From positions 1 to 64,000 of the IMG/VR virus record IMGVR_UViG_3300035698_006348: DNA of 64,000 bases; one strand, 5' to 3'. A program made the position numbers and the translations under genes. Below the pieces are notes generated by a model. It had not been told where the DNA came from, ran no database searches, and saw only the letters and a list, made by a program, of their open reading frames with translations. The stretch comes from a virus. This document shows, piece by piece, positions 48,529-63,127 of the stretch; positions within the stretch are counted from its first letter, which is position 1; each line of letters opens with the position of its first letter.

Positions 48529-48569
48529 TAGCCACCATATAGCGTGCACTATAAAAAGAGGTAATCCAT

Positions 48570-48785
48570 GTGAAAGTTATATGTCCTATTTGTGATAAAG
48601 AGATACTAAAGACTGATTCTAAGCAGATTGTAGCTATTGATCGTCCAGATAAGATGAATATATTCTGCCACCTATCATGTATAAATAATACAAATTTGGA
48701 GGAATATCTAAAAGATAATAAAAACTATACTAAATTCCTTTCTATACATACTGCTAGGAAAATAAAAATAAATATGAAAAAATAG
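48570..48785 (+). CDS. Small zinc-finger protein
   Basis: 71 residues from GTG 48570, which follows AAGAGGTAATCCAT; the ATG two bases earlier is out of frame and closed by TGA. C-P-I-C-D-K (5-10) and C-H-L-S-C (about 33-37) form a zinc site; basic C terminus (R-K-I-K-I-N-M-K-K). Unknown function. Confidence 0.55.
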   Translation: MKVICPICDKEILKTDSKQIVAIDRPDKMNIFCHLSCINNTNLEEYLKDNKNYTKFLSIHTARKIKINMKK

Positions 48786-48791
48786 TAATAT

Positions 48792-48821
48792 TTGACAAAA
48801 TGTGCACTTTCATGGTATAAT
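48792..48821 (+). promoter_or_regulatory. Rightward promoter for the NrdJ-tail gene, tRNAs and ncRNA
   Basis: TTGACA (48792-48797), 18 bp, TATAAT (48816-48821). Start expected near 48828, about 14 nt ahead of ATG 48842. It can serve the short genes, three tRNAs and the structured RNA that follow. Confidence 0.8.
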
Positions 48822-48841
48822 TAAGATAGTGGAGAAAATAA

Positions 48842-48970
48842 ATGACAGAAAAAGATGAGGTTGAAGAGGTAGAGGAAGAATGTTGCCCTGAATGTGGATC
48901 CCCATACTATGTAAAAAATGGTAGATGCTCAACATGTTTATCTTGTGGATTTTCTCTATGTGGTATTTAA
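48842..48970 (+). CDS. Stand-alone C-terminal Cys-rich redox tail of class II ribonucleotide reductase
   Basis: 42 residues, with GTGGAGAAAATAA before ATG and its own promoter. After an acidic helix (E-V-E-E-V-E-E-E) comes C-C-P-E-C-G-S-P (residues 14-21), then C-S-T-C-L-S-C-G-F-S-L-C-G near the end. The CPECGS...GxCxTCxxCGxSxC spacing is that of the extreme C terminus of full-length NrdJ, which binds zinc and carries the Cys pair that re-reduces the active site. The NrdJ body at 28050 lacks this part. Known: the tail's role in NrdJ. Inferred: that the small protein acts in trans. A generic zinc ribbon is the alternative. Confidence 0.7.
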   Translation: MTEKDEVEEVEEECCPECGSPYYVKNGRCSTCLSCGFSLCGI

Positions 48971-49071
48971 AACTATACCGTTTACTTTCATTTGACCAAA
49001 CTTGTAGAGCTTGTGGATCAATTATTACTGGGCATAGAAAATACTGTCCTGTTTGTGGGGCAAGAATCTAA
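48958..49071 (+). CDS. Tiny zinc-ribbon protein overlapping the NrdJ-tail gene
   Basis: 37 residues from ATG 48958, overlapping the previous gene by 13 bp with no clear ribosome site of its own, so it would depend on coupling. C-R-A-C-G (16-20) and C-P-V-C-G (about 30-34) form a complete zinc ribbon. It ends 6 bp before the first tRNA. Real expression is uncertain, but four correctly spaced Cys in 37 residues are unlikely by chance. Confidence 0.5.
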   Translation: MWYLKLYRLLSFDQTCRACGSIITGHRKYCPVCGARI

Positions 49072-49077
49072 TATTAT

Positions 49078-49150
49078 AGGGGCATATTTCAATTGGCAGA
49101 ATACTTGCCTTGGACGCAAGTGGTTGGGGATTCAAATTCCTCTGCCCCTA
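49078..49150 (+). tRNA. tRNA-Pro (anticodon TGG)
   Basis: Cloverleaf with a perfect 7 bp acceptor (AGGGGCA with TGCCCCT), D-arm 49087-49102 with 3 pairs, anticodon stem CTTGC/GCAAG with anticodon TGG at 49111-49113, and T-arm GGGGA-TTCAAAT-TCCTC. Discriminator A; CCA not encoded. Confidence 0.92.
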
Positions 49151-49220
49151 CTAGATGCAATAGTTCCTAAAAGCTATAGCTCCCTTTGTAAAGAGTGACA
49201 GCCTGGAGAGACAGGCATAT

Positions 49221-49294
49221 GGACAGGTAGCTCAATTAGGTAGAGCACTAATCTCCAAAATTAGTGGTTCTGGGTTCGATTCCCAGCCTGTGCC
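49221..49294 (+). tRNA. tRNA-Trp (anticodon CCA) with irregular acceptor stem
   Basis: D-arm GCTC/GAGC, anticodon stem CTAAT/ATTAG with CCA at 49255-49257, T-arm CTGGG-TTCGATT-CCCAG. The acceptor GGACAGG faces CCTGTGC, leaving a G-G mismatch at the second pair; alternatively G 49292 bulges and the stem closes with 49293-49294, making G 49295 the discriminator, as is usual for bacterial tRNA-Trp. CCA not encoded. Confidence 0.85.
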
Positions 49295-49303
49295 GCTAGA
49301 CAT

Positions 49304-49376
49304 TCCTAGATAGCTCAATTGGTAGAGCGAGCGGCTGTTAACCGCTAGGTTAGTGGTTCGATTCCACTTCTGGGAG
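49304..49376 (+). tRNA. tRNA-Asn (anticodon GTT)
   Basis: Acceptor TCCTAGA with TCTGGGA (one G-T pair), D-arm GCTC/GAGC, anticodon stem AGCGG/CCGCT with GTT, T-arm AGTGG-TTCGATT-CCACT. Discriminator G followed by CC, so the CCA end is not fully encoded. Confidence 0.93.
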
Positions 49377-49380
49377 CCTT

Positions 49381-49955
49381 ATCTGTATGATCAAAACCTC
49401 GGCCAGAAGCAGTACTGGTCTATACGTAAGTTCTGCGTATAATCAAAAATGCACGGGCAGTATATGGAAGGTCTGCCTCTGTACAGATATAATACTGTAA
49501 TACACTTATGGATCATGCGTTCTTTAACGCTTCTTTTCTGTGACAAATCTCGTATATAGAAAAATACACAGATGCATAATACAGATCATGGAGTATATTA
49601 CAGTAATTCATGCTAACAACATGGCAAAACAGCCTTATGAGTTACTATGTAAGGTGAGGTTAATCAGCAGACCTAAAGATTCGCAGACGTGCGGAAGCTG
49701 AGAAAGTTTGGGTAAGGTATCACATTTGGGTCTAGATTTAGTCTCTGCGTGAGCTTCACTAAATGTGATACTCATTCCCAATTAAGTCCATGTTTTTCAT
49801 GGCAATCCTCCCTGATCTCCAGTCTAATACTGGTGGGAGGAGACTGGTAGTCAAATATTTGTTGTTACTCGATATACAACTAAAATAAGATCAAGTTCTA
49901 AATGTTTGTTGCTACTTGGTATGCAACTGAAAAAAGGCCAAGTTCAAATATGTAA
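49381..49955 (+). ncRNA. Large structured non-coding RNA, possibly ROOL/GOLLD-like (family not assigned)
   Basis: About 575 nt without a supportable ORF, directly after three tRNAs. Many long complementary pairs can be traced by eye: 49381-49387 with 49482-49488; 49422-49426 with 49436-49440; 49493-49502 with 49596-49605 (10 bp perfect); 49717-49727 with 49761-49771 (11 bp perfect); 49694-49699 with 49752-49757 (pseudoknot into that hairpin's loop); 49788-49792 with 49798-49802; 49807-49812 with 49835-49840 enclosing 49819-49823 with 49829-49833; and two tandem pseudoknots at 49861-49943. Size, complexity, phage setting and place beside tRNAs agree with the ROOL and GOLLD classes. I cannot confirm the family by sequence. 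Probably transcribed with the tRNAs and cut free. Confidence 0.75.
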
Positions 49956-49967
49956 AGGAGCTTTATA

Positions 49968-50420
49968 ATGGATAACGGAAATAATTCTTTTTTTAGTGAG
50001 GTTATAAATTTTGGTGAGCTTAGAGATGAAAATGGTAAACTAGTGTACTCATGGCCATACTCTAAGCGTTGCCCAGATTGTGGGGAAGAAGCAATGGTTG
50101 GAGATAAGTGCACCGCTTGTGGAATTGATAACTATCAGGAGAAATGTCCTAAATGTAGTAAATGGGTAAACAATAGGCAAATAAAGGAGTTTGGACATTG
50201 CACATTCTGTGAAAGGGATATTATTCATAAAAAAAGTAGGGCTACTGCTATTGCATTAGAAAAAATTAGGATTGATACACTTATAGAGGATGTTAAATTA
50301 CTTTCTACACGTGATTTAGTTGAATCATTAGATTTAAGTTTAGATTATATAGACCCAGCTAGTTTAGTGTTTTTAAATGAGCTAAAGGAAAGGATAAAAG
50401 GAGGAAATATTGGCAGATAA
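49968..50420 (+). CDS. Multi-zinc-ribbon protein
   Basis: 150 residues, AAAGGAGC before ATG. Six Cys-x2-Cys pairs in residues 35-85 (C-P-D-C-G, C-T-A-C-G, C-P-K-C, C-T-F-C) make two to three zinc ribbons in tandem, followed by a helical C-terminal domain (about 95-150). Starts 12 bp after the structured RNA. May bind that RNA or DNA, or act with the next gene; unknown. Confidence 0.65.
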   Translation: MDNGNNSFFSEVINFGELRDENGKLVYSWPYSKRCPDCGEEAMVGDKCTACGIDNYQEKCPKCSKWVNNRQIKEFGHCTFCERDIIHKKSRATAIALEKIRIDTLIEDVKLLSTRDLVESLDLSLDYIDPASLVFLNELKERIKGGNIGR

Positions 50421-51099
50421 GAGAATTACTATTCCAGACAGTAGAAAGCTTAGAAATCTTAGGCAATACAAAGATATGTCTGAAGATGAATTTAATGCAG
50501 TTATGGAAAAGAAACAGAAGAAAGTGTCTGTAAATAATTCGATGGAATCTCGTATTGAGGATAAAATCAATACCCTAGCTGTAGACTATGATTTAGACGA
50601 CCTAAATGCCAATGATATTATGATGCTTAGGGCTTTAGTACAAGCACTTATAAGTCTGGAAGATTATGAGATAGAAATTTATAAACTTAGGGGAGAAGGA
50701 ATTAATATTGGTAATATTGCTGTACTAGAAAAATTATCTAGGGTTTCTTCTGATTTACGTGCAGATATTAGCAAGTTTCAAACAGATTTAAATATAACAA
50801 GAAAATATAGAGCTTCCGATAAAGCAGAGTCAGTTGTAAAGGAATTAGAAACTCTAACGAAAAAAGCAAGAAAATTCTATAAAGAAAAAATGTCTTATGT
50901 TTTATGTCCAGAATGTAATATGTTACTTGCAACAATCTGGGTACACTATCCAGAAGTAAATAATAAACTAACCTTTATCTGTAATAGATTACTTGATGAG
51001 GATGGTAATAGATGTGGACATAAATTTTCTGTTACTACTAAAGAACTAATGGAAAAACATGGTGTGAATGTTGACCATTTTCCAGAGAGTATGAAATGA
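50410..51099 (+). CDS. Unknown protein with C-terminal zinc ribbon, possible small terminase
   Basis: 229 residues from TTG 50410 (AAAAGGAGG upstream). Residues 1-60 charged, 70-165 a helical domain (L-R-A-L-V-Q-A-L-I-S-L-E-D-Y-E), then C-P-E-C (about 173-176) and C-N...C-G-H (about 194-206), a zinc site. Sequence order in this operon (small gene, glycan cluster, terminase, portal) leaves room for a small terminase subunit here, and the long helical repeat would suit it. Weak evidence. Confidence 0.5.
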   Translation: MADKRITIPDSRKLRNLRQYKDMSEDEFNAVMEKKQKKVSVNNSMESRIEDKINTLAVDYDLDDLNANDIMMLRALVQALISLEDYEIEIYKLRGEGINIGNIAVLEKLSRVSSDLRADISKFQTDLNITRKYRASDKAESVVKELETLTKKARKFYKEKMSYVLCPECNMLLATIWVHYPEVNNKLTFICNRLLDEDGNRCGHKFSVTTKELMEKHGVNVDHFPESMK

Positions 51100-51356
51100 G
51101 TGATTTTATCTTTTTACATATAGGGTATTTTTTCTTTGGAATGATTATTGGTATAGTCCTGGCCTCTTTAAAAAATAAACAAAGTAGGCATTATGTAGTT
51201 AGACCGAAGAAACCAAATAAGCCTCCTAAAGTTCCAGCATATCCACAAGTAGGTAAAAATTGGATATTTTTTAATCCGACTGGTTCCTATGATGATGATC
51301 CATTTGTAGTGCAAGATAAAAGTATAAAGAGGTATAAAATTGGAAAAGGAAAATAA
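51096..51356 (+). CDS. Small membrane-anchored basic protein
   Basis: 86 residues: one N-terminal membrane helix (about 4-24), then a basic Lys/Pro-rich segment (R-P-K-K-P-N-K-P-P-K) and a soluble C terminus. ATGA overlap with the previous gene; the 3' end overlaps the dehydratase by 17 bp. Unknown function. Confidence 0.6.
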   Translation: MSDFIFLHIGYFFFGMIIGIVLASLKNKQSRHYVVRPKKPNKPPKVPAYPQVGKNWIFFNPTGSYDDDPFVVQDKSIKRYKIGKGK

Positions 51357-52323
51357 AACAGCAGTAATTACTGGTGTTTATGGGCAAGATGGTAGTTACT
51401 TAGCAGAGTATCTTCTATCACTCAACTACACAGTATATGGAGTATCTAGACCAAAACATACTGGATACATTCCAGAGTATATGTATAAAATATTGGAGCA
51501 TGAGAATTTTAAAAGTGTATCAATTGATGTAATTGATGCTGGGGCTGTATTTGGAATTGTAAATCAGATAAAACCTGATGAGTATTATAATTTGGCTGCT
51601 ATCTCATTTATTCCTATTTCTTGGGATAATCCATCCTTAGTTTTGAATATAAATACAATTGGCACACTAAATGCTTTAGAGGCAATAAGAACTTGTTCAC
51701 CAAATACTAAGTTCTATCAAGCTAGTTCTAGTGAGATGTTTGGAAACTCTAGAGATGTTCCACAACATGAAAATACACCAATGAATCCAGAAAGTCCTTA
51801 TGCAATTTCAAAGGTAACTGGACATAATTATACAAATAACTATAAAGATAGTTATGGAATCTTTGCTGTATCTGGATTAGCATTTAATCATGAGTCTCCA
51901 CGTAGACGGAAGGAGTTTGTTACTAGAAAGATTACAAATGCTGTGGTTAGAATAAAAGCTGGTTTACAAGATAAATTATTTTTAGGGAATATTTCTGCTA
52001 AACGTGATTGGGGTTTTTCAGGGGATTACGTAAAAGCAATGTGGCTTATGCTACAAAATAGTGAGCCAACAGATTTTGTGATTGGAACAGGTATTGATTA
52101 TTCTGTCGAAGATTTCTGTAAAGAAGCCTTTAGCTATGTAAATTTAGACTATACTAAATATGTAGAAATTGACGAAAAGTATATTAGACCTGTAGATGTT
52201 CAACGATTGTTGGCAGACCCCTCTATGATTGAACAACGATTGAATTGGGTGTCTATTATTGGCTTTAGTGATCTTGTTTCTATGATGATGGAGCACGATA
52301 AAAGTTTAGTAGGGTTACATTAG
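51340..52323 (+). CDS. GDP-mannose 4,6-dehydratase-like SDR enzyme
   Basis: 327 residues from TTG 51340, the only start that keeps the N-terminal strand, with AGAGG upstream. I-T-G-V-Y-G-Q-D-G-S-Y (NADP-binding GxxGxxG), N-L-A-A, S-S-S-E-M-F-G (catalytic Ser/Thr and Glu), Y-A-I-S-K (Tyr and Lys of the SDR triad), N-H-E-S-P-R-R. These are GMD motifs. Produces GDP-4-keto-6-deoxymannose. First enzyme of the glycan locus, and its product suits the aminotransferase at 55277. Confidence 0.9.
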   Translation: MEKENKTAVITGVYGQDGSYLAEYLLSLNYTVYGVSRPKHTGYIPEYMYKILEHENFKSVSIDVIDAGAVFGIVNQIKPDEYYNLAAISFIPISWDNPSLVLNINTIGTLNALEAIRTCSPNTKFYQASSSEMFGNSRDVPQHENTPMNPESPYAISKVTGHNYTNNYKDSYGIFAVSGLAFNHESPRRRKEFVTRKITNAVVRIKAGLQDKLFLGNISAKRDWGFSGDYVKAMWLMLQNSEPTDFVIGTGIDYSVEDFCKEAFSYVNLDYTKYVEIDEKYIRPVDVQRLLADPSMIEQRLNWVSIIGFSDLVSMMMEHDKSLVGLH

Positions 52324-52336
52324 AAAGGAAAGGATT

Positions 52337-53242
52337 ATGAAGAACGTATTGCTTATTGCAGGTGGAAGACGAGTTGATCTTGGAAGACGCTTTGAACAAG
52401 CTGGTTATACTCCTATATTTTATGAATTATGTTCTACTGCACCAGTTTCTACTTATTTCAGAACTGTAAAAGGTTTGAAATGGGATGATAAGAAAATTTA
52501 CTGGGATATTGAAGATACAATTAAACGCTTTAATCCAAGTTTTGTATTTCCATTACAGGATGCTGCAATTCCTATCTTGGCTAGAATAAAACAAAGAGGC
52601 TACGATAATATTATTGTATCTGATGAAAAGACTGCTAATATTTGTACTGATAAACAATCTTTTGAAACCTTTATGTTAAGTAATTTTCCGTTTATTTACC
52701 CGTATCCAGAAGTACATAAGAAAATGATTGTGAAACCAAGATTTGGTTATGGATCAAGGGGAATTACAATAGAGGAGTCTCCAGAGCTTATAGTTCAACA
52801 TAATAAAGTATGTCAGAGATTTGTAGAGGGTGTGGAATATTCAGTTGATGCTTATTTTGATAAAAAGAATTCTTATGTAGATTCAGTACCTAGAATAAGA
52901 AATATAATTGGAAGGGGAGAAGTTGTTTCTAGTACTACAAAAGAAAATAAGCTCTTACAGTACTACGTAAAAGAAGTTGGAAGGAAACTTCAATTATATG
53001 GTCCAATTAATTTTCAGTTTATTGTAGGAAAGGGAGCACCAGCCCTAATAGAGATAAATGCTAGGTTTGGTGGTGGGATGACACTCTCTATGGAAGCAGG
53101 ATTAGATATTATTAAGTTACTAGAAATTGATCGTGGATTATCAAAAGAATGTTATAGTGTTGATAAATGGAGGAAAGGCTTAACAGTGGAAAGATCATAT
53201 CAAGACCACTTCTTTACTGAGCCTTGTACTCTAATGGGATAA
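52337..53242 (+). CDS. ATP-grasp enzyme in glycan locus
   Basis: 301 residues. N-terminal Rossmann part (L-L-I-A-G-G-R-R, V-F-P-L-Q-D), then ATP-grasp core: M-I-V-K-P-R-F-G-Y-G-S-R-G (Lys and Gly loop), Q-R-F-V-E-G-V-E-Y-S-V-D and A-L-I-E-I-N-A-R-F-G-G-G (metal Glu and Asn). The layout is that of the CarB-like group, which forms carbamoyl- or amide-type bonds and is often found in sugar modification clusters. Substrate unknown; perhaps amidates or acylates the sugar. Confidence 0.82.
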   Translation: MKNVLLIAGGRRVDLGRRFEQAGYTPIFYELCSTAPVSTYFRTVKGLKWDDKKIYWDIEDTIKRFNPSFVFPLQDAAIPILARIKQRGYDNIIVSDEKTANICTDKQSFETFMLSNFPFIYPYPEVHKKMIVKPRFGYGSRGITIEESPELIVQHNKVCQRFVEGVEYSVDAYFDKKNSYVDSVPRIRNIIGRGEVVSSTTKENKLLQYYVKEVGRKLQLYGPINFQFIVGKGAPALIEINARFGGGMTLSMEAGLDIIKLLEIDRGLSKECYSVDKWRKGLTVERSYQDHFFTEPCTLMG

Positions 53243-53256
53243 ACGAAAGGAGTTTT

Positions 53257-53694
53257 ATGTTTACTTATACAGAAAATAGGAAATTAATTGGATATGCTTA
53301 TGTTTGTGGAGATATTCTCCATTATGGGCATGTGCTCCATTTACAAAACTGTAGAGCTTTATGTGATAAGTTAATAGTTGGCGTTCTAACAGATGAAGCT
53401 ATTATGGAAAAGAAACAGAAGCCAATTATCGGATTACGAGATAGAATGGAAATGGTTGAACTACTTCCATATGTAGATATTGTAGTACCACAGAATGATT
53501 ATTCACCTATATATAATATATGTGATATTGGTGTAGATGTTTTATTTGAAAGTACAAGTCATTCAAAAGAAGATTTAAAAGAAACATTTGATATCGCTAA
53601 AAAGAAAGGAATCAAAGTAAGAGTAATGCCTTATTATCCTAATAACAGTTCAACAGAAATAAAGGAGAAAATTAAATCTGAATGGAAGAAGTAA
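53257..53694 (+). CDS. Cytidylyltransferase-family nucleotidyltransferase
   Basis: 145 residues from ATG 53257 (AAAGGAG upstream). Y-A-Y-V-C-G-D-I-L-H-Y-G-H (HxGH, about 20-25), V-G-V-L-T-D-E, K-Q-K-P-I-I-G-L-R-D-R (about 59) and N-S-S-T-E-I (ISSTxI motif near 133). The family moves CMP or AMP to glycerol-3-phosphate, ethanolamine phosphate or similar, giving CDP-activated groups. Likely feeds the LicD-like transferase two genes on. Confidence 0.88.
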   Translation: MFTYTENRKLIGYAYVCGDILHYGHVLHLQNCRALCDKLIVGVLTDEAIMEKKQKPIIGLRDRMEMVELLPYVDIVVPQNDYSPIYNICDIGVDVLFESTSHSKEDLKETFDIAKKKGIKVRVMPYYPNNSSTEIKEKIKSEWKK

Positions 53695-54092
53695 AGAGAG
53701 CAAGTTCAGCACTAAAAAGTATTATCTGGAGAGTTATGGGAGTTATTGTTTTAGCTACCATTACATATCTTGTTACTAGACAATGGATTGTTACCACGTA
53801 TATAACCGTTGTACATCATGCCACATTTCTGTTAGTTTTCTATCTGCATGATAGAGCATGGATGAAGTTTAAAAAAGATATTGGGTACTGGCGAAATGTT
53901 ATTAAAGCCTTTACATACGAAGTTATATTGGGAATGGGTATAGGTGGGTCTATTGTTTATTTATTCACAGGTAGTTGGTCTAGTGTAACACTTATCACAC
54001 CTATTTACACTGTTGTCAAAATAGTTATGTATTTCTTTTACGATAGGATTTGGGATGGAAAAAATAGATCAATTAAGAACATTAGTAAGTAG
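53682..54092 (+). CDS. DUF2061-like membrane protein
   Basis: 136 residues with four membrane segments in two similar halves. Each half has a K-S-I-I-W-R-V or K-A-F-T-Y-E-V lead and ends with an H-D-R-A-W or Y-D-R-I-W motif, the DUF2061 pattern. Function unknown. Overlaps the cytidylyltransferase by 13 bp and the LicD-like gene by 38 bp. Confidence 0.75.
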   Translation: MEEVKRASSALKSIIWRVMGVIVLATITYLVTRQWIVTTYITVVHHATFLLVFYLHDRAWMKFKKDIGYWRNVIKAFTYEVILGMGIGGSIVYLFTGSWSSVTLITPIYTVVKIVMYFFYDRIWDGKNRSIKNISK

Positions 54093-54597
54093 AACAGCTG
54101 AGTTTCTTATTAAAAATGGCATTGACTATTGGGCAGATTTTGGAACTTTGCTAGGTTTATACAGAGATGATGATATTATCCCGTGGGATACAGATGCTGA
54201 TATTTCTTTAGAAGATATTTGGCTTCCATATTTTATGCATATAAAAGATAAACTTGAGAGAAAGACCGGTTTTATAGTAAAAGGTAGTACAGAAGTTAGG
54301 GTCGTGTTTGAGGAGTCATTTCTAGATTTATATTTTTGGCACTTTGATAAAGATAAAATATTAGGTTACAATATAAATAAAGGATTTGAACATTTTAATA
54401 ATAGACTAGCTGTAGATCGTAATCATATCAATGAACTACCTAAAGTATTTGAATGGAAAAATAAACAGAAAATTCTATTCCCATCTAATCCAGAGGGTAG
54501 ACTTATACAATTATACGGTAAAGATTTTATGAAGCCAGATAAAACAATTAACTATTGGTCTTGGAAGAACTATTATGCTAGGAGTAGAAATAAATGA
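54055..54597 (+). CDS. LicD-family phosphotransferase
   Basis: 180 residues. Y-W-A-D-F-G-T-L-L-G-L-Y-R-D (about 25-38) followed by I-I-P-W-D-T-D-A-D-I (about 41-50) is the LicD nucleotidyltransferase-fold signature; D-L-Y-F-W is the third acidic strand. LicD proteins transfer phosphocholine or similar groups from CDP onto sugars. With the cytidylyltransferase this suggests addition of a phospho-group to the phage glycan. Confidence 0.87.
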   Translation: MEKIDQLRTLVSRTAEFLIKNGIDYWADFGTLLGLYRDDDIIPWDTDADISLEDIWLPYFMHIKDKLERKTGFIVKGSTEVRVVFEESFLDLYFWHFDKDKILGYNINKGFEHFNNRLAVDRNHINELPKVFEWKNKQKILFPSNPEGRLIQLYGKDFMKPDKTINYWSWKNYYARSRNK

Positions 54598-54887
54598 GTG
54601 ATACCATTGGAAGTCTTATAGATAAACTAATAACAGTAGATATGAAATTGTGGGATTCTCAAGATAAAGTTTATAAATTACGTAAAATGACAGAGGACGA
54701 ATTTAAAGAATTGTTCACAAACAGTCCTGATGAAATATTGGGATTTTGGAAGATATTAAATAAAGCAACTAATTTAAATGTACAAAGAAATGATTTGATT
54801 GAAGAAATTGACACGTTGCTTGTTGAAATGGGAAAGAGTGGGGCTGATGTTAGCAAATACATACAGAAAGCCCATAAAACTTATTAA
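54594..54887 (+). CDS. Small protein of glycan locus (DUF4254-like)
   Basis: 97 residues, ATGA overlap with licD-like gene. S-L-I-D-K-L-I-T-V-D-M-K-L-W-D-S-Q-D is like the start of small helical proteins (DUF4254) seen in glycosyltransferase clusters. Helical, charged. Role unknown. Confidence 0.5.
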   Translation: MSDTIGSLIDKLITVDMKLWDSQDKVYKLRKMTEDEFKELFTNSPDEILGFWKILNKATNLNVQRNDLIEEIDTLLVEMGKSGADVSKYIQKAHKTY

Positions 54888-54896
54888 GGAGTTAGT

Positions 54897-55334
54897 ATGA
54901 ATAATGAAACAAATCTCATAGTTTTTGTTAATAATACTCATGAGTTGGCGTTGTATGAAAAATTCTTTAGTGCTTTTGAGCATGTATTTATTCTTGCGAG
55001 TGAATATGTATATTGGCCAGTTGTTAAAAAGTATAAACATAGTAAAGGAAGTATTAGTGTATATGGGTTTGATAATAATATTGATATGGTAACTACAATC
55101 TTTACAGGATATAAATCAAATGCATTTTATGTTATTAGAGAGCATGTTGATGTAGAAATAATTTCAAAGATTAAACAAAGAGGAAATAAGTTAGATAAAT
55201 ACTTATGTTTATATGGTAATAAGGTTTCAGGGTTTACTAAACAAAGTAAAGAAATTAACGGAAAGGAGTTATTTGAATGTATAAAATCAACGTCTACGAA
55301 CCGACAATCTCGGGCGAAGAAATCAAAAAGGTAA
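54897..55334 (+). CDS. Unknown protein in glycan locus
   Basis: 145 residues, AAGGAGTTAGT before ATG. Rossmann-like alternation of hydrophobic strands and helices (L-I-V-F-V-N-N, V-F-I-L-A-S-E, A-F-Y-V-I-R-E), basic C terminus. May be a small glycosyltransferase fragment or sugar-binding protein. Overlaps the aminotransferase by 58 bp. Confidence 0.5.
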   Translation: MNNETNLIVFVNNTHELALYEKFFSAFEHVFILASEYVYWPVVKKYKHSKGSISVYGFDNNIDMVTTIFTGYKSNAFYVIREHVDVEIISKIKQRGNKLDKYLCLYGNKVSGFTKQSKEINGKELFECIKSTSTNRQSRAKKSKR

Positions 55335-56404
55335 CAGCCGCAATAGATAGAAATGAAATAGCGATTGGCAAAGACTTAGATTTTGTTAGAACAGTTTTAA
55401 CAACTTTAACTAATTCCTCTTTTATTATTCCAGTAAATAGTGGAACAGCCGCTACACATCTTTTAGCAAAAGCTTTACAACTAAGAATGCCAAATAAAAG
55501 AATACGATTGGCAGTACCAAACAATGTTTTTGTAGCCGCTTGGAATAGTTTTTTATACGAAGATATATTTGACTTTTTTGTTGTAGATGCAGACCCATTT
55601 ACTTGGAATATTGATGTAGATCAACTTGTTTCTAATAGAGAAAACTATGACGCTGTGCTAGTTGTACATAATCTAGGTAATATAATAAATGTACCAGAAC
55701 TAAAAAGAATGCTTCCAGATAAGTTATTTGTTGAAGATAACTGTGAGGGATTTGCAGGTATGTACGAAGGATTTTTTACTCCTAGTGCTTCTTTAGCTGG
55801 TTCAATTTCCTTTTATGGGAATAAACTAATTACAAGTGGTGAAGGTGGGGCATTTGCAACAAATGACCCAGAGTTATTTAGAGAGATTCATAAGATTGTT
55901 GGTCAAGGGCAGAGTAATGTTAAGTTTATTCATCAGTGTCTTGGTTACAATTATAGAATGAGTAATTTACAGGCTGCTTTTTTATCTGGGCAACTTAGTA
56001 TTTTACCACAGTCACTTGGTAGAAAGAAAGAAATAATGGCAAGATATTACGAGAATTTAGCAGATACTTTTGGGGAACAACTTGATTATCAGTCACATGC
56101 TAATAAAACCTCGTTTAGCAATTGGATGCTAGGTTTTAGATTTCCAAGGCAGTCTACATATTCAACAGCAAATGCCTTTTTTGATGATAAGGGTATAGAA
56201 ACTAGGCCAATGTTTTATCCAATACATTATCATGGACATTTGAGTCATTTTTATGTGAAGAATACAGTTGCTGAACGACTATCAAGAGAATGTGTTATTT
56301 TTCCATCACATCCAAATATGACAATGAAAGATGTAGATTATGTTTCTGAACATATTATAAAATATATATCTATACTAAATAGCTCAAAGCTTCCAATGAT
56401 ATAA
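55277..56404 (+). CDS. DegT/DnrJ/EryC1-family sugar aminotransferase
   Basis: 375 residues, AAAGGAG before ATG 55277. P-V-N-S-G-T-A-A-T-H (about 53, PLP phosphate), E-D-N-C-E-G (about 155, Asp to pyridine N), S-F-Y-G-N-K-L-I-T-S-G-E-G-G (Lys Schiff base about 182), G-Y-N-Y-R-M-S-N (about 223). Transfers an amino group to a keto sugar. With the GMD-like enzyme it could make GDP-perosamine (GDP-4-amino-4,6-dideoxymannose), the usual product of this pair; that pairing is inference. Confidence 0.93.
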   Translation: MYKINVYEPTISGEEIKKVTAAIDRNEIAIGKDLDFVRTVLTTLTNSSFIIPVNSGTAATHLLAKALQLRMPNKRIRLAVPNNVFVAAWNSFLYEDIFDFFVVDADPFTWNIDVDQLVSNRENYDAVLVVHNLGNIINVPELKRMLPDKLFVEDNCEGFAGMYEGFFTPSASLAGSISFYGNKLITSGEGGAFATNDPELFREIHKIVGQGQSNVKFIHQCLGYNYRMSNLQAAFLSGQLSILPQSLGRKKEIMARYYENLADTFGEQLDYQSHANKTSFSNWMLGFRFPRQSTYSTANAFFDDKGIETRPMFYPIHYHGHLSHFYVKNTVAERLSRECVIFPSHPNMTMKDVDYVSEHIIKYISILNSSKLPMI

Positions 56405-56417
56405 AGGAACAGGAAAC

Positions 56418-57062
56418 ATGGCAAATATTTATGAGGTCGATTACAAAGTAATTGAAGATGATAGACTAGAAGCTTTACCAAGCATTCTATATGCAAAATA
56501 TAATGATTTAGTACTTGTTAGGAGAAGTATTTTTAACTTCCAAAATAGAGTACTTCCTAAAATTAATAATTCAATTGTATTAGAAATTGGGACAGCCTTT
56601 TTTGATAGTTATAGATCAAATCCTGTTTATAATTTAGTGGAAGATTTTTATGTTGATGTTCCTGTTAAAATGCAAGAACAAGGTAATAAATATATTAGCT
56701 GTGGATTAGATGATGAAATGGAGTTTGATTTTAATATTGATGCCATAGACTTACAATCAGTTATAGCAAATGATTACCTAGATTTTATTCTTGCTTTTGA
56801 TGTGTTTGAGCATTCTAAATATGTCATGGAATTACCTAAAGTCCTGAGCAATATTTTGAAACCAGGGGGTATTCTATTTTTTACTGTTCCATTTTATTGT
56901 AGAAAACATGATAATAAGAATGATTATTGGAGATTTACTGAGTTAGGTATTAGACAATTATTTGGTAAGTATTTTGATTTATATATAGAAAAAGTATTAT
57001 GGAAAGAAAACGATGGGGACACACCAGTACATATTGTAGTAAAGGCAGTAAACAATGTTTAA
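56418..57062 (+). CDS. Class I SAM-dependent methyltransferase
   Basis: 214 residues. V-L-E-I-G-T-A (about 54, motif I), F-I-L-A-F-D-V-F-E-H (about 123, motif II/acceptor), L-K-P-G-G-I-L-F-F-T-V-P-F (about 148). Likely methylates the sugar or the glycan end. Overlaps the next gene by 8 bp. Confidence 0.85.
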   Translation: MANIYEVDYKVIEDDRLEALPSILYAKYNDLVLVRRSIFNFQNRVLPKINNSIVLEIGTAFFDSYRSNPVYNLVEDFYVDVPVKMQEQGNKYISCGLDDEMEFDFNIDAIDLQSVIANDYLDFILAFDVFEHSKYVMELPKVLSNILKPGGILFFTVPFYCRKHDNKNDYWRFTELGIRQLFGKYFDLYIEKVLWKENDGDTPVHIVVKAVNNV

Positions 57063-57900
57063 TGTATTAGGATTTTATAATTACTTCGGTAATGGAGATT
57101 TATTTAATTCAAAAGAGTTTGTAAGGGACATTGTTGCTAATGTTCCTGCAAAAGAATATTATTACTTACATTTAAGAGACCCAAAGTTACTATATGATCT
57201 TGAGGGTGTAAAGTATAGTAAACCAAATTATCTATGCCAACCAAATAAACAATTTTACATAGAGAATAATGAATTATATATTAATACATGGATAGGTTTA
57301 GATAGTAAGTATGTCCTACCAGGTATTGGTTGTACACTAAAAAAGAATATAGATTTATATAATATGATTCTTAGTAAAACAGGTGTAAGTTTTAGATTAA
57401 CCAAACCAGCAGAGAATTATGTACCAACAATAGATTTTGATAGCTTATATTCAGTTGATGGATTAATTGGAAATATTCTAATATCAAATGGGCTTGTTTA
57501 TTCTAGTCAAGCAAAGAACTTTGATTTTACACCAATAATAGACAAGCTATCTGATAATTTTCCAAATGAGCACTTTGTGCTAACCTCTCCAACAAATTTA
57601 AAAAAGGAAAATATTTCTTATACAAATGATTTATTTCCATCATTGATTGGAGCAGATTTAAATGAGATAGGCTATCTAAGTACTAGGTCAAAACTAATTA
57701 TAGGGCGGTCTTCTGGACCATATGGTTTTTGTCAAAATAAACATAACCTATATACTAGCCCTAAAGACTTTATATCTTTTTGTTACCATAAAAACTGTGC
57801 TTCATTTGTACATGATATAAAAACAAATGCAACTATTACACACTCTTCTGCAACAGATGCAGAGGCAGTTTATAATGTAATTGCATCACATATAAGGTAA
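57055..57900 (+). CDS. Probable GT-B-type glycosyltransferase
   Basis: 281 residues. The C-terminal third, L-I-G-A-D-L-N-E-I-G-Y-L-S-T-R-S-K-L-I-I-G-R-S-S-type with G-P-Y-G-F-C, resembles the nucleotide-sugar pocket of GT-B enzymes (helix then I-I-G-R-x-S-G-P loop). The N-terminal half is divergent. Place between a methyltransferase and a GT2 supports the call. Confidence 0.6.
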   Translation: MFNVLGFYNYFGNGDLFNSKEFVRDIVANVPAKEYYYLHLRDPKLLYDLEGVKYSKPNYLCQPNKQFYIENNELYINTWIGLDSKYVLPGIGCTLKKNIDLYNMILSKTGVSFRLTKPAENYVPTIDFDSLYSVDGLIGNILISNGLVYSSQAKNFDFTPIIDKLSDNFPNEHFVLTSPTNLKKENISYTNDLFPSLIGADLNEIGYLSTRSKLIIGRSSGPYGFCQNKHNLYTSPKDFISFCYHKNCASFVHDIKTNATITHSSATDAEAVYNVIASHIR

Positions 57901-57906
57901 AGGTAT

Positions 57907-58824
57907 ATGAATAAAAAACTTTTAGTAGGAATAGGTACTTTCGGGCTATTGGAATATACAAAACTAGCAATTAAATCAATTAAAGATACAGTAAAGAAAA
58001 CAGACTATGATATATTACTTATAGTTGGTAAGAATGGGGATGTTGAAACAATAAATTATGCAAAGGCAAATGGACTAAAACATATAGTCCATACAACTAA
58101 TAAAGGATTTCCGGCCTCTATAAATGATATGTATGATTATGCTTGGAAAGATAATGCTTATGAATATTTGCTTATTATGGGAAATGATGTTATAGCTTAT
58201 CCATATGCTGTTGATTCAATGGTAGAGGTAGCTGATACCACATTATATGATTGGGTATGCTCAAGAGAATTTAGTGTGCAAGCTCTTGTAAAAGCATTTC
58301 CAGTAACTTCCTCCTATTTTACAGGAAAAGCTTTCAAGTATAAATTTGGAAGTGGCCCATGTTGGGAATACTTTGATAAGTATAAAGAAAAGATTACAGT
58401 TAGCACCTCTGGTATGTCTGATACTCATAACTTAGGGTTATATAAGAAATCAATTTTTGATAAGGTTGGATATATTGATGTAAATTTCTATCCAGCCTAC
58501 TTTGAAGATAATGACTTTGCAAGGCGGTCTATGTTAGCAAATGTGAAATCTTGTACAGTTGATAATGCTTTTTATTTCCATTTCTGGAGTAGAGTTATAA
58601 ACGAAGGCTCTGGAGGATCAACTCCAAAATATTTCTCAAATAATCAGCAGTATTATATACAGAAATGGGGTGGACTCTTTACAAAAGAATTATATGATTT
58701 ACCATTTAATGGAAATGGGCATACCTTAGATGGAGACATATTTTTAAAATCAGAAATAAAAATAACGTCTAGAGAGGATGAACTCAATATAGCTAAATAT
58801 TGGACACATCTTGGGAGTGGTTAA
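57907..58824 (+). CDS. Family 2-like glycosyltransferase (GT-A)
   Basis: 305 residues, AAAGGTAT before ATG. N-terminal G-I-G-T-F, T-N-K-G-F-P-A-S-I-N-D (about 63-73), I-M-G-N-D-V (about 94, GND in place of DxD), Y-F-E-D-N-D-F-A-R-R (about 199, catalytic ED). Transfers sugar to the growing glycan or to a virion protein. Its stop overlaps the terminase start by one base (TAATG), which couples glycan and packaging genes. Confidence 0.87.
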   Translation: MNKKLLVGIGTFGLLEYTKLAIKSIKDTVKKTDYDILLIVGKNGDVETINYAKANGLKHIVHTTNKGFPASINDMYDYAWKDNAYEYLLIMGNDVIAYPYAVDSMVEVADTTLYDWVCSREFSVQALVKAFPVTSSYFTGKAFKYKFGSGPCWEYFDKYKEKITVSTSGMSDTHNLGLYKKSIFDKVGYIDVNFYPAYFEDNDFARRSMLANVKSCTVDNAFYFHFWSRVINEGSGGSTPKYFSNNQQYYIQKWGGLFTKELYDLPFNGNGHTLDGDIFLKSEIKITSREDELNIAKYWTHLGSG

Positions 58825-61565
58825 TGGCACTAATTGAGAATGTGAATCAAGAGGATTTAATTCTTTATGAAATATTAAAGCATCCAGTATTATCTGGTGA
58901 GTTCCTTCAAAACTTAGATAGACTCGAACATGAAGATATTTTTAAGTTTGAGTGGTATCAGGTGGATTTTTTAGCTGATTTTGCTAAGCAAGTGTCTATT
59001 GCTTGTGGAAGGGCTGTTGGGAAGACAGTTAGTCTAACTAATATGACTATATGGTTACTTATAAATAAGATTTTCCCAGAAGATTATATAGTATATACAG
59101 TTCCAAGTAAGGTTCATTTAGATCCAGTTTTTACATCTCTTACTAGAATGTTTAGAAGTAACTCTTTATTAAAGAATTTTTTACAGGCAAAGAAAGGGAT
59201 AAATGGTTCTGATTTTACAATAAACCTTTTAAATGGCACAACACTAATGTGTCGTATAGCTGGCCAATCTGGAACTGGGGCTAATGTTATTGGTTTACAT
59301 ACACCATTTATAATTCTTGATGAGTGTATTGTTGGTACTCAGCATGTTGCTATGCCAACTTGTAATAAAACAGCAGATAATGTAAAAGTTGGAGATTCCA
59401 TATTATCATGGAATGGTGAATCTATTGAAGAGGATAGAGTTATAAATGTTCGCCGTACCAAAAGAGAGCAAAAAGTTTTAGAGGTTGTATATGATTCTGG
59501 GAAAATTAGAGTAGGAGAAAATCATAAAATATATACAGATAATGGATATGTTAAAGCCTCAGAGTTAGTAGTAGGTGATAATATATACTATACTGAAACT
59601 ACTAGAAGTAATCTGCCATGGACGAAGAAAGATTATAAAATTTTGGAAAAGAATGTTCAAGTTGGAATTCGTGTAAAAGAAGTAGCAAAAATACTAAATC
59701 GTTCTGAGCAGTCTGTTTTTAGTAAAATAGAGAAAAAATATACTTCTACCCACAATTTATTTTATTCTAAGCCCCTAACAGAAAAGCAATTAGATATAAT
59801 TAGGGGATCATTATTAGGAGATGGGTCTACAGCAATATACACAAAAACTGCATCATACTCTACTAATCATAGTTTAAAACAAAAAGAGTACGTTGATTGG
59901 TTATATACTGAATTGAAATCAATTACTAGATGTAAACCACGAATTTATAAAAATGGTGGCTATGGTGAATATAACTATGCCTTTTCAACGCTAGGTCATC
60001 CAGAGATTTTTGATATTGTTTCAAAATTATACATAAATGGTAAAAAGACAGTTACACGAGAGTATTTAGATAAATTATCAAAATTAGCATTGGCTGTATG
60101 GTGGATGGATGATGGATCAAATAGTGGTGTATTGTCTTCACATTCTTTCTCAAAAGAAGAAAATGAAATTGTAATTGAGTGGATGAAGGATACTTTTTCA
60201 ATAAATTGTAAATTATATAAAGATAAAAAAAGAAACTTATATTTTATAATATTTCCTGCAAAATCTAAAAGAGAACTAAATAAGCTTTTAGCCCCCTATA
60301 TGCATAAGGCTATGAAATATAAAGTAGGTATAGGGAAATATAATAATGAATATACCTTACCAAATATTGAACTTATTGGTAAAGGCGAAGATAATAAATC
60401 ATTAGTAAAAAAAGTAGTACTTAATATTAGAGAGGTAAATACAAGGGCTGCTTATCTTTATAACTTTGAAGTTGAAAAGAATCATAACTATTTTGTAAAT
60501 GGTATTCTTACTAAAAATTCTGGTTACTACCCCTGGGGCACATGGTTAGAGTTACAACCAACACGTAATACTTGGACACCTGGAAGTAGGATTATTACAT
60601 CAGGAGTTCCAACAGGTTTACGGGAATCAAATGTTCTGTATAATACAGACATGGTAGATGGGGGATATATGAAACATAGAATAAGTGCATATGATAACCC
60701 ACGATTTACAAAAGAAGACGAAGAAAATGCCATAGCTCAATATGGTGGAAAAGATGGTGAGGATTTTACTCACTTTATTATGGGTAGGCATGGTAAACCA
60801 TTATATTCATTATTTGACAGATCCTTATTTAAGGTTGAACCCTATCCAGTATACAAACTGAAGATAAATGGTCTAAAAATGACAGGGGATATTGCTGAGT
60901 ATCTTACAAGAATAAGAACAATTCCAAATACTGATGAAGGTGTTGAAACAATTATTGGAATTGACTTAGGTTATACTGAACCGACAGCTATTGTTGTAAT
61001 GTATAAAAATAAGAAAGGCAGATTTAAATTTCATTGTAGAATAGAATTGAAGAAAGTTCCATATCCTATACAAGAGATTATAATAGATTTACTAGATACA
61101 AAGTTTGCTCCTTTTAAAATAGGAATTGATAAAGGTAGTTCAGGTATTTCAGTAATCCAGAACCTAACTAGTAATTTAAAATATGGTCATAAAAATTATG
61201 AAGATATTATTGTACCAGTTGATTTCTCATCTTCAATAGTAATTGGTTTAGATGCAGATGGTGCAGAAATAAAATCAAAGACAAAGCCATTCTCTACTTC
61301 AATTTTACAAGATTACTCAAATAATCATAAAATAGTTTATTCGTCAACAGATTTGGAAATGATAACTGAACTTGAACGAATGTCATATACTAAAACCCCA
61401 TCTGGTGATATTGTATATAAAACTTTAACCCAAAGAGGTGGGACACGGGGAGAAGATCACTTTACTGCTGCTATGCTTTGTTTTTCATTATCAAATTATT
61501 TGTATACAGATTATATAAATATGCGAAGAACTAGAAAATTAGCAGCCCCAACATGGATACGTTAA
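58824..61565 (+). CDS. terL: Terminase large subunit interrupted by an intein
   Basis: 913 residues from ATG 58824 (GGGAGTGG upstream), of which 168-565 are an intein. ATPase: C-G-R-A-V-G-K-T (61-68, Walker A with Arg), F-I-I-L-D-E (162-167, Walker B, the intein follows the Glu), and S-G-V-P-T-G (motif III/coupling). RNase H-like nuclease: G-I-D-L-G-Y-T-E-P (about 711, first Asp), I-G-I-D-K-G-S-S-G (second Asp), D-H-F-T-A-A (late Asp). It cuts and pumps DNA into proheads. Spliced length is about 515 residues, normal for TerL. Confidence 0.95.
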   Translation: MALIENVNQEDLILYEILKHPVLSGEFLQNLDRLEHEDIFKFEWYQVDFLADFAKQVSIACGRAVGKTVSLTNMTIWLLINKIFPEDYIVYTVPSKVHLDPVFTSLTRMFRSNSLLKNFLQAKKGINGSDFTINLLNGTTLMCRIAGQSGTGANVIGLHTPFIILDECIVGTQHVAMPTCNKTADNVKVGDSILSWNGESIEEDRVINVRRTKREQKVLEVVYDSGKIRVGENHKIYTDNGYVKASELVVGDNIYYTETTRSNLPWTKKDYKILEKNVQVGIRVKEVAKILNRSEQSVFSKIEKKYTSTHNLFYSKPLTEKQLDIIRGSLLGDGSTAIYTKTASYSTNHSLKQKEYVDWLYTELKSITRCKPRIYKNGGYGEYNYAFSTLGHPEIFDIVSKLYINGKKTVTREYLDKLSKLALAVWWMDDGSNSGVLSSHSFSKEENEIVIEWMKDTFSINCKLYKDKKRNLYFIIFPAKSKRELNKLLAPYMHKAMKYKVGIGKYNNEYTLPNIELIGKGEDNKSLVKKVVLNIREVNTRAAYLYNFEVEKNHNYFVNGILTKNSGYYPWGTWLELQPTRNTWTPGSRIITSGVPTGLRESNVLYNTDMVDGGYMKHRISAYDNPRFTKEDEENAIAQYGGKDGEDFTHFIMGRHGKPLYSLFDRSLFKVEPYPVYKLKINGLKMTGDIAEYLTRIRTIPNTDEGVETIIGIDLGYTEPTAIVVMYKNKKGRFKFHCRIELKKVPYPIQEIIIDLLDTKFAPFKIGIDKGSSGISVIQNLTSNLKYGHKNYEDIIVPVDFSSSIVIGLDADGAEIKSKTKPFSTSILQDYSNNHKIVYSSTDLEMITELERMSYTKTPSGDIVYKTLTQRGGTRGEDHFTAAMLCFSLSNYLYTDYINMRRTRKLAAPTWIR
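59325..60518 (+). mobile_element. Large intein with LAGLIDADG endonuclease in terminase Walker B
   Basis: 398 residues (168-565 of the reading frame). Block A C-I-V-G-T-Q; block B G-E-N-H-K-I-Y; two LAGLIDADG-type motifs, R-G-S-L-L-G-D-G-S and L-A-V-W-W-M-D-D-G-S; C-terminal N-H-N-Y-F-V-N-G-I-L-T-K-N, then Ser +1. The penultimate residue is Lys instead of the usual His. Removal joins L-D-E to S-G-Y, restoring the Walker B helix. Confidence 0.95.
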
Positions 61566-61567
61566 TT

Positions 61568-63073
61568 ATGCCTGAAAAAACAAAAGATGTTACTCCAGAA
61601 GAGGTTACACAGAAACTAGCTTTAGCTAGTAGTCTTAGTATATACCCCTCTGGCACTGCTGCACCGTGGTCACCTACAGATGTAGATAAAATGGATGTAG
61701 CTGATGTAGATACTCACTTTTCAAAAGTAGTATCTATGTGTAAGTTTTTCTATAAAAGAGACCCATTAGCCTCAACTGTTATTAATAAGGTAGTTGATAT
61801 AGCTATAAGTAATCTAATATTTGATAAAAATGATTTAAACGATAATGAGTTTAAAATCTATACTTCTATAAGAACAGAACTTACAGAGTTTGCAGAAGCA
61901 ATGGCACTTGAATTTCTATTATCTGGGCTTGTTGTTCCAGAGATAAGTTATAGCAAGGTTTTAAAAGAAAAGTTACAGATGTTTGGTATTAAAAAATACA
62001 CAAATCTTACATTACCTGTAACAATGTGGCTAAGAAATCCTAGTGATATAGCAATAAAACAATCCTTATTTTCTGATAAACCTTCTTACTATCTGCATAT
62101 TTCCGATGCTATTATATATTTCCTACAGCATGAAGGGAGATATTCAGATGGCATGGTGGATACAAAACTGTATAGAGAAATTCTTGTTTTATATCCTGAG
62201 TTTGTAGCTGCTGTTCTTAGAGGAGAAAAATACATATTATTAGAAAACGAACTAATATTTAGACGTAGACCAACAACTGATTCACCTTATCCATTACCTT
62301 TCTTATATCCATCTCTTGAGGCTATGAAACATAAACGTAATTTACGTAGAATGGATTATTCTATTGCATCTAGAGTTATTAGTGCTATTATGCTATTCAA
62401 GCTTGGATCAGATGAGTTTCCTATAACTGCTGATAATAGTGAAGATTTTGAAGCAATTAAAAATCAAATGGCATGGAGAGATACTCAAGGAAGAGATATA
62501 GAACGCATCTTCCAATTGTTTGCAAACCATACATTGGCTATTGAGTGGATATATCCTCCAACTGAGGCATTACTAAATGATATAAAGTATATAAATATAA
62601 ATCAAGACATTATTTTTGGTATGGGATTTCCAAGGATTCTTATAACAGGTGAGTCTGAAAGAAGTAATTCATCCAACCCAGAGTATGCACTTATGGGTCC
62701 AATTAAGACAATGGAGAATATGCGTAGAAAGCTAGAAGTTATTCTTAATAAGATTCTATATAAAATTAAAACTATGAATGGTCTAAAAGGTACTCCTGGT
62801 GTACATTTCTCAGAAATGAATTTAGTTAGTTTTGAGGTCTTTATCTCTGGGTTATCAGAATTATATACAACAGGTAACTTATCTAGAGAAGCTTACGCAG
62901 AAGCTTTTGGATATAATTGGAATGATGAAATTCAGAAACGAATTGATGAGCAGGCTATTATTGAAGATTCAGGAATACCCGAGTTTGCACCTGTGCCTCA
63001 TTCACAGAATCCAGAGAGTACAACTGAGCCTATGGTGAAACCTGTGAAAAAGGATGAAAATACTAAGAAATAA
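61568..63073 (+). CDS. Portal protein
   Basis: 501 residues from ATG 61568 (506 from ATG 61553; neither has a strong site). Follows terL directly. Residues 20-480 show the portal pattern: F-F-Y-K-R-D-P-L-A-S-T-V-I-N-K-V-V, a W-L-R-N-P wing strand, L-P-F-L-Y-P-S-L-E, R-D-T-Q-G-R-D-I stem helix, G-F-P-R-I-L-I-T-G-E-S region and F-I-S-G-L-S-E-L-Y-T-T-G. The C-terminal 40 residues are disordered, Pro/Thr/Lys-rich. Forms the twelve-fold ring through which DNA enters. Motif recognition is moderate; context is strong. Confidence 0.82.
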   Translation: MPEKTKDVTPEEVTQKLALASSLSIYPSGTAAPWSPTDVDKMDVADVDTHFSKVVSMCKFFYKRDPLASTVINKVVDIAISNLIFDKNDLNDNEFKIYTSIRTELTEFAEAMALEFLLSGLVVPEISYSKVLKEKLQMFGIKKYTNLTLPVTMWLRNPSDIAIKQSLFSDKPSYYLHISDAIIYFLQHEGRYSDGMVDTKLYREILVLYPEFVAAVLRGEKYILLENELIFRRRPTTDSPYPLPFLYPSLEAMKHKRNLRRMDYSIASRVISAIMLFKLGSDEFPITADNSEDFEAIKNQMAWRDTQGRDIERIFQLFANHTLAIEWIYPPTEALLNDIKYININQDIIFGMGFPRILITGESERSNSSNPEYALMGPIKTMENMRRKLEVILNKILYKIKTMNGLKGTPGVHFSEMNLVSFEVFISGLSELYTTGNLSREAYAEAFGYNWNDEIQKRIDEQAIIEDSGIPEFAPVPHSQNPESTTEPMVKPVKKDENTKK

Positions 63074-63098
63074 GTAAATTATACATAACTTTATATGT

Positions 63099-63127
63099 TT
63101 TTCACTAAAATGGTGTATAATTATAAT
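63099..63127 (+). promoter_or_regulatory. Promoter upstream of protease / capsid genes
   Basis: TTTTCA (63099-63104), 17 bp, TATAAT (63122-63127). A second TATAAT lies at 63116. The -35 box is weak. Placed in the 96 bp gap between portal and protease, it could raise capsid gene expression. Confidence 0.5.

Follow-up and report, generated by a model that had tools for sequence, protein, structure and literature searches.

Organization of the glycan cassette

The window analyzed here comprises 64,000 nucleotides (positions 1 to 64,000) of IMG/VR record IMGVR_UViG_3300035698_006348, an 86-kb and possibly incomplete record of an uncultured bacterial or archaeal virus. Within it, a glycan cassette of 11 ORFs, all on the + strand, runs head to tail with near-zero spacing from 51340 to 58824 (Table 1). 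A sequence-only reading had reported nine-plus genes in this interval; every gene it named lies at the coordinates given, and the gene count was revised to 11. Two small ORFs, beginning at 54594 (DUF4254-like) and 54897, were missing from its list. The TAATG overlap with terL that it described is present at 58822-58826, where the GT2 stop codon TAA meets the terL ATG at 58824, preceded by GGGAG. This ATG replaced an earlier candidate terL start (TTG, 58800), and a probable start at ATG 53257, with a Shine-Dalgarno sequence, replaced 53224 for the nucleotidyltransferase. The + strand operon is headed by the sole site within 48500-64000 that matches the sigma-70 consensus at 12/12 positions.

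Table 1. Coordinates (window numbering) of the cassette, its left flank, and the adjoining head genes.
Feature	Coordinates	Strand	Evidence or remark
Candidate sigma-70 promoter, TTGACA-18-TATAAT	48792..48821	+	12/12 consensus match only
ORF229 (zinc-ribbon-like C terminus), conserved gene bordering the cassette slot on the left	50410..51099	+	Homologue left of slot in relatives
86-aa ORF, single hydrophobic N-terminal segment	51096..51356	+	
GDP-mannose 4,6-dehydratase-like SDR (GMD)	51340..52323	+	PF16363 GDP_Man_Dehyd 4e-107; SSSEMFG and YxxxK present
ATP-grasp ligase, ATPgrasp_Ter / PRK12767-like	52337..53242	+	Pfam ATPgrasp_Ter 4e-18
Nucleotidyltransferase, TagD/HldE-like, HYGH motif	53257..53694	+	Pfam CTP_transf_like 2e-12
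DUF2061 membrane protein	53682..54092	+	Pfam DUF2061 2e-20; hydrophobic segment
LicD/FKRP-like phosphotransferase, GTLLGLYRDDDIIPWDTDAD motif intact	54055..54597	+	Pfam LicD 2e-7
u97, 97-aa DUF4254-like small protein	54594..54887	+	Core cassette gene, 17 slots
145-aa ORF	54897..55334	+	No match in family searches
DegT/perosamine-synthase-like PLP aminotransferase, catalytic Lys in FYGNKLITSGEGG	55277..56404	+	PF01041 2e-53
SAM methyltransferase-like, motif I degenerate (VLEIGTAFF)	56418..57062	+	Pfam Methyltransf_23 1e-6; motif read from sequence
u281, 281-aa GT-B fold glycosyltransferase, GT9-like (WaaC/TibC)	57055..57900	+	Predicted fold, pLDDT 85
GT2-family glycosyltransferase (core gene), immediately upstream of terL	57907..58824	+	Pfam Glycos_transf_2 5e-5
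terL with intein (LAGLIDADG) at catalytic DE motif	58824..61565	+	
Portal protein	61553..63073	+	

The first part of the cassette encodes putative donor-synthesis and tailoring enzymes. GMD matched PDB entry 1n7g at 7e-92 and scored 356 bits against NCBIfam TIGR01472, under the equivalog cut-off of 415. The best solved relative of DegT is the perosamine synthetase 3bn1, with the catalytic Lys conserved, and its top NCBIfam model is LegC-type with a score below cut-off. The amino-deoxy sugar proposed earlier is reasonable given GMD, DegT, and the relationship to 3bn1. Its more specific form, GDP-perosamine, was not established, since 10 contigs (some truncated) have near-clade cassettes with DegT but no detected GMD homologue, and neither enzyme reaches equivalog cut-offs; GDP-perosamine would be one candidate for the exact sugar. 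Solved-structure and family searches did not fix the substrates of DegT or of the nucleotidyltransferase. The latter, previously called a cytidylyltransferase, is no closer to cytidylyltransferases than to HldE-type adenylyltransferases; a single-protein search of viral contigs returned no relative. ATP-grasp had no relative among the named phages searched and co-occurs with DegT in 6 of the 7 relatives that carry it. The 145-aa ORF is absent from every cassette-protein cluster of at least two members and was found only in this locus.

Of the two glycosyltransferases recognized earlier, GT2 is backed by Pfam, and u281, which matched nothing in Pfam or PHROG at 0.01, was identified by its predicted fold only. 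The u281 model aligned with 6dfe over 237 residues (Z 13.7, rmsd 4.6, identity 9%), and we name it only GT9-like because it lacks a sequence-profile match to family 9. Enzymes with the GT9 fold mostly target LPS; TibC modifies a protein. No relative of GT2 was detected among the named phages searched. Protein u97 scored 20.4 bits against 27 for Pfam DUF4254, a family that 12 of the 120 cassette proteins match with E values up to 0.01, the lowest being 1e-5. Downstream, the portal gene is followed by genes for a protease, a decoration protein, an HK97-fold major capsid protein (MCP), and a third glycosyltransferase, GT4, at 66775-67968 of the record in the same head operon; a tape measure gene also occurs later in the record. 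The low-confidence capsid model (pLDDT 64) serves only to assign the HK97 fold.

Conservation, relocation, and exchange among relatives

Of 40 non-duplicate related viral contigs, 39 had their u281 homolog close to terL, portal, or capsid genes. GT2, present in 39 of the 40, almost always followed u281 and in most contigs directly preceded terL, with gaps of tens of bases. A scan of genome contigs for u281 recovered two MAG contigs, both from phages of the same group. The cassette occupies three different places in the morphogenesis module: between ORF229 and terL in most relatives, before ORF229 in contig L080, and after the portal gene in a distant clade. Contigs L002 and L013 had been scored as lacking the cassette. 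This was withdrawn because both begin inside ORF229 and the L080 cassette lies upstream of ORF229; their slot is empty and the cassette may sit elsewhere.

In the distant clade, and in all near relatives whose contigs extend far enough to tell, GT4 lies among the head genes. Its homologs in the otherwise unrelated cultured phages S-CBS4, Mae-JY09, and TJE1 also occur in the head module (between portal and MCP in S-CBS4, two genes past MCP in Mae-JY09). The homolog in S-EIVl adjoins primase, away from head genes, which counts against a virion target.

The remaining cassette genes are exchanged among relatives. Across 20 filled slots they fall into 48 families, 29 of which were seen once, and phages with portals 90% identical have 1 of 15 families in common in the ~9 kb that follow the portal gene. 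Ratios of dN/dS were about 0.03-0.16 for u281, GT2, GMD, and DegT, indicating purifying selection, as for terL, portal, and MCP. Distances among GT2 homologs correlated with those among terL homologs (rho 0.46) to a degree similar to MCP distances (0.44).

Candidate targets of the glycan

We consider it somewhat probable that the locus is a phage-encoded, exchangeable module for glycosylation of the virion. The sequence-only reading had reached a glycosylated virion from co-transcription; the link to the morphogenesis operon is indeed conserved over dozens of contigs, and the virion as target is favored rather than demonstrated by it. Operon position likely reflects late co-expression and says nothing of the target. 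The virion is favored over the host surface because linkage is conserved despite relocation and because GT4 is nested among head genes. The dN/dS ratios, the GT2-terL correlation, and the head-module GT4 homologs of unrelated phages also speak for the virion reading. In the proposed mechanism, the variable genes would make the sugar donor, with GMD and DegT plausibly yielding an NDP-4-amino-4,6-dideoxyhexose to which ATP-grasp, the nucleotidyltransferase and LicD, and the methyltransferase may add acyl or aminoacyl, phospho, and methyl groups, respectively. The conserved u281 with its putative small partner u97, GT2, and GT4 would act as soluble cytosolic glycosyltransferases and, as the virion is assembled, would build a short glycan straight onto a structural protein. 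We infer that this acceptor is a virion protein of the head, decoration, or tail. A Ser/Thr-rich acceptor tail was sought in MCP and the decoration protein and nothing clear was found; the lack of Ser/Thr enrichment at the capsid C terminus counts against the virion reading. Since the attaching enzymes are kept in the head operon while the sugar-making genes are swapped, the particle probably bears a phage-specific sugar coat.

The sugar might instead be added late in infection to host LPS, capsule, or S-layer, which would block superinfection or keep progeny from re-adsorbing to debris. Similar phage gene sets are usually read as LPS modification (PMC9602691; PMC10980836, where GT9 genes are among them), and the predicted fold of u281 resembles LPS heptosyltransferases. 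The cassette also holds a LicD-like enzyme and the DUF2061 membrane protein, the latter counting against a virion target, but membrane proteins are nearly absent overall: 4 of 139 cassette proteins, DUF2061 among them, have a hydrophobic segment. No Wzx flippase (PF01943) was found in nine records, all fragments, such that flippase genes might lie outside them; nor was a tyrosine integrase (PF00589) found in the possibly incomplete 86-kb record, outside which lysogeny genes might lie. Moreover, remodeling of the host surface does not predict a fixed linkage to terL, portal, and MCP that is kept through relocation, and we regard it as unlikely.

Two further explanations appear less probable still. 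The slot could be a site of frequent gene acquisition that is sugar-rich by chance and yields no common product, as its high turnover, with 29 of the 48 families seen once, and a non-sugar gene in the slot of one relative (L007:3083-4156) would allow. The recurrence of u281, GT2, and u97, selection on cassette genes as strong as on head genes, and Pfam tallies consisting almost throughout of sugar and methyl-transfer enzymes make such a passenger island improbable. Glycosyltransferases acting on modified bases of phage DNA are known (T4; cited in PMC12619734, PMC9614988), yet no ThyA-family base hydroxymethylase was detected in the record and eight relatives, all fragments, and methyl, amino, and phospho tailoring of sugars together with a head-gene link is atypical of DNA-modifying systems. 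We therefore consider DNA hypermodification very improbable.

Comparison with known glycan systems

Very few phages are known to carry glycans on their particles. Virion glycosylation has been described in mycobacteriophages; what is new here is a complete, variable sugar pathway inside the head operon. In Che8 and relatives (Freeman et al. 2023), glycans have been shown on capsid and tail tube, as relayed by the citing papers PMC11256854 and PMC12619734. From these accounts, that group and the present locus have in common phage-encoded glycosyltransferases and a glycan proposed on structural proteins; the present locus differs in having a full donor-synthesis set in the head operon that varies between relatives, and in that its glycan is predicted from gene content. 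Chlorovirus PBCV-1 likewise carries glycosyltransferase genes of its own with which its capsid is glycosylated (PMC7826918), but it is a eukaryotic virus with N-glycans and a different capsid and enzymes. Literature searches on hypervariable phage glycan loci and glycosylated virions returned nothing usable.

In bacterial O-antigen loci, conserved borders enclose sugar genes that can be exchanged. The present locus follows the same plan, with virion assembly genes as borders and no Wzx found. By analogy with O-antigen exchange in bacteria, this uncultured group of tailed phages may possess glycan serotypes, in which fixed virion-directed glycosyltransferases and an exchangeable sugar-synthesis interior would give close relatives chemically different coats that are swapped by recombination in the head operon; we advance this tentatively, as a possibility somewhat short of even likelihood. 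If virion glycosylation is true, a large environmental phage group spends as much as about 8 kb of the head operon on a self-made, rapidly exchanged surface glycan, which would imply strong, unrecognized selection on the particle exterior, whether from grazers, surface adsorption, competing phages, or host glycan-binding factors.

Cyanophages and groundwater phages carry nucleotide-sugar auxiliary genes (for example P-SSM2, S-SCSM1) that include GMD homologs at about 43%. Such genes are read as LPS or cell-wall genes in PMC9602691 and PMC10980836, whose passages on them describe no linkage to a head operon. Were the virion reading true, nucleotide-sugar 'auxiliary metabolic genes' in viromes would need rereading, since they are at present attributed to host LPS as a matter of routine. 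The genome of Tetrasphaera phage TJE1 contained no match to u281 or GT2. Like the present locus, it has putative sugar genes and a GT4 homolog near terminase and portal genes: orf9-orf14, a few genes upstream of terS-terL-portal, encode a nucleotidyltransferase, kinase, epimerase, methyltransferase, and the GT4 homolog (31%).

Layout of the cassette and its glycosyltransferases

The window covers the initial 64 kb of a viral record 86,463 bp long, and the cassette of sugar genes comprises 11 successive ORFs, all on the + strand, that overlap or are separated by a few bases and are mostly preceded by a Shine-Dalgarno sequence. The gene functions assigned in the sequence-only reading were borne out by Pfam, and the TAATG overlap it had described is present between terL and the last cassette ORF, the glycosyltransferase GT2. 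Downstream of terL are a portal, a putative capsid protein, and a tape measure; the capsid protein was identified from a weak PHROG match together with a low-confidence model that still matches HK97-fold shells (E about 1e-8). A consensus promoter precedes three tRNA genes and the entire late + strand operon, and a consensus scan found no strong + strand terminator within the cassette. In terL, the catalytic DE motif is the insertion site of a large intein that carries a LAGLIDADG endonuclease; this intein is absent from related contigs L002 and L005, and terL of contig L006 has a ~1.2 kb insert further along.

Features of the window, the longer record, and related contigs
Feature	Position	Remark
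Amidoligase-ligase cluster	14474-22316	
RtcB-type tRNA ligase	24287-25522	
Sigma-70 consensus promoter	48792-48821	perfect 12/12, TTGACA-18-TATAAT, TG before second hexamer; consensus scan
tRNAs	49078-49378	Pro, Trp, Asn
ORF229	50410-51099	left border of cassette slot
Cassette	51340-58824	+ strand
u97	54594-54887	97 aa
u281	57055-57900	281 aa
GT2	57907-58824	
TAATG overlap	58822-58826	
terL	58824-61565	
Third glycosyltransferase, family GT4	record 66775-67968	among head genes
VSR/homing-endonuclease-like protein	record 71642-72157 (L003:9643-10158)	172 aa
Intein-like insert in GT2	L005:7022-8458	Pfam Intein_splicing 1e-7
HENIH protein	L007:3083-4156	357 aa

The u281 product had no match in Pfam or PHROG. 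An AlphaFold2 model built from seven relatives (pLDDT 85) matched the heptosyltransferase WaaC (Z 13.7, 237 residues), a Veillonella GT9 enzyme (Z 13.3), and the protein heptosyltransferase TibC (Z 12.5), with 9-11% identity across the three. These matches indicate that u281 is a predicted GT-B, GT9-like glycosyltransferase. A protein of Solumvirus, a giant virus, matched the u281 fold with 28% identity, and u281 homologs are located near DegT homologs in three huge-phage genomes of 636-735 kb (LR756501, LR756503, and LR756504; matches H51-H53). In contig L005, an intein-like insert splits GT2. Inteins are usually located in important genes, and the insert thus fits with GT2 mattering to the phage.

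Linkage to head genes, variability, and selection

Viral loci were gathered with portal (30) and u281 (48) profiles, and 40 u281-bearing contigs were left once duplicates were dropped. GT2 was present in 39 of these and a structural gene likewise in 39, the two exceptions (L079 and L070) being short stretches that end near the cassette. The usual order was u281, GT2, and terL, tens of bases apart, and GT4 was found at the same site in all near relatives that reach that far and also in a distant clade. The cassette lies between ORF229 and terL in the majority of contigs, upstream of ORF229 in L080, and behind the portal in the distant clade, where ORF229 adjoins terL. Two MAG contigs labelled Bathyarchaeota (L081) and Brevinema (L082) belong to this phage group; these labels probably reflect binning errors or unrecognised hosts.

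The 20 filled ORF229-terL slots (one a duplicate; 3.3-8.8 kb each) held 143 genes in 48 families, 29 of them singletons. Only u97 (17 slots; weak DUF4254 match), u281 (17), and GT2 (16) were near-constant. Top matches among the 120 cassette proteins scanned were methyltransferases, DUF4254, nucleotide-sugar epimerase/dehydratase, C-methyltransferase, FkbM, DegT, ATP-grasp, and sulfotransferase; an IspD-SDR fusion or an additional GT2 occurred elsewhere among relatives' cassettes. In the distant clade, phages with 90% identical portals had 1 of 15 gene families in common within ~9 kb downstream of the portal, and pairs with 85-86% portal identity had 2 of 11. Contig L007 encodes a non-sugar, metallopeptidase-like protein with a HENIH motif between GT2 and terL.

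The aminotransferase DegT and ATP-grasp tend to co-occur, DegT being present in six of seven contigs with ATP-grasp. The dehydratase GMD and DegT of the window's type were not seen together in the near clade outside the window, and the window's cassette is therefore a new combination of genes. GDP-perosamine, the product proposed from sequence, remains chemically natural for GMD plus DegT, although no conserved pairing of the two stands behind it.

The cassette genes are in use by the phage. Their dN/dS was 0.04-0.16 (u281), 0.03-0.16 (GT2), 0.06-0.09 (GMD), and 0.08-0.12 (DegT), equally low values being obtained for terL, portal, and the major capsid protein (MCP), with many dS values saturated. 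The cleanest pair, contigs L040 and L042 (dS 0.1-0.6), yielded 0.04 for u281, 0.07 for GT2, and 0.08 for DegT. GT2 is inherited largely together with the head module; correlations with terL distances were rho 0.46 for GT2 and 0.44 for MCP, and lower (0.17) for u281.

Proposed target of the glycan

Most likely, the variable cassette genes would direct the cytosolic synthesis of a modified NDP-sugar, which the conserved glycosyltransferases would attach, perhaps as a short chain, to a structural protein either ahead of assembly or while it proceeds. Retention of the linkage between cassette and head genes through relocation argues for the virion as target, as does the solubility of the enzymes, a hydrophobic segment being present in only 4 of 139 cassette proteins. 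The recurrence of GT4 homologs in head modules of the otherwise unrelated cultured phages S-CBS4, Mae-JY09, and TJE1 also favors it, S-EIVl being a counter-example. Counted against it are a membrane protein in the window's cassette, the failure to find a glycan acceptor (no clear Ser/Thr-rich tail was seen in MCP or the decoration protein), and the prevailing interpretation of such genes as acting on LPS (PMC9602691, PMC10980836). The absence of a Wzx flippase from nine records, and of a tyrosine integrase from this one, points weakly to the virion, as these records may be fragments. Action of the glycosyltransferases on DNA is unlikely, since a ThyA-family enzyme is absent from the same number of records, possibly all fragments.

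Virion glycosylation by phage-encoded enzymes is described for mycobacteriophages (Freeman et al., 2023, as cited in passages of PMC11256854 and PMC12619734) and, by virus-encoded enzymes, for chloroviruses (PMC7826918). Relative to the open-access literature, what appears to be new is a whole, strongly variable donor-synthesis set inside the head operon across a phage group, where three glycosyltransferases and a DUF4254-like protein form the fixed core.

Other features of the phage

A cluster encoding an amidoligase, a class-II glutamine amidotransferase, an ATP-grasp protein, a phiEco32-like COOH-NH2 ligase, and a peptidase C26/GATase is, judging from its gene content, a putative second modification island that may form peptides or amides. 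The three tRNAs and the RtcB-type ligase occur in the same phage. The VSR/homing-endonuclease-like protein, recognized by eye, follows a putative tail tube gene.
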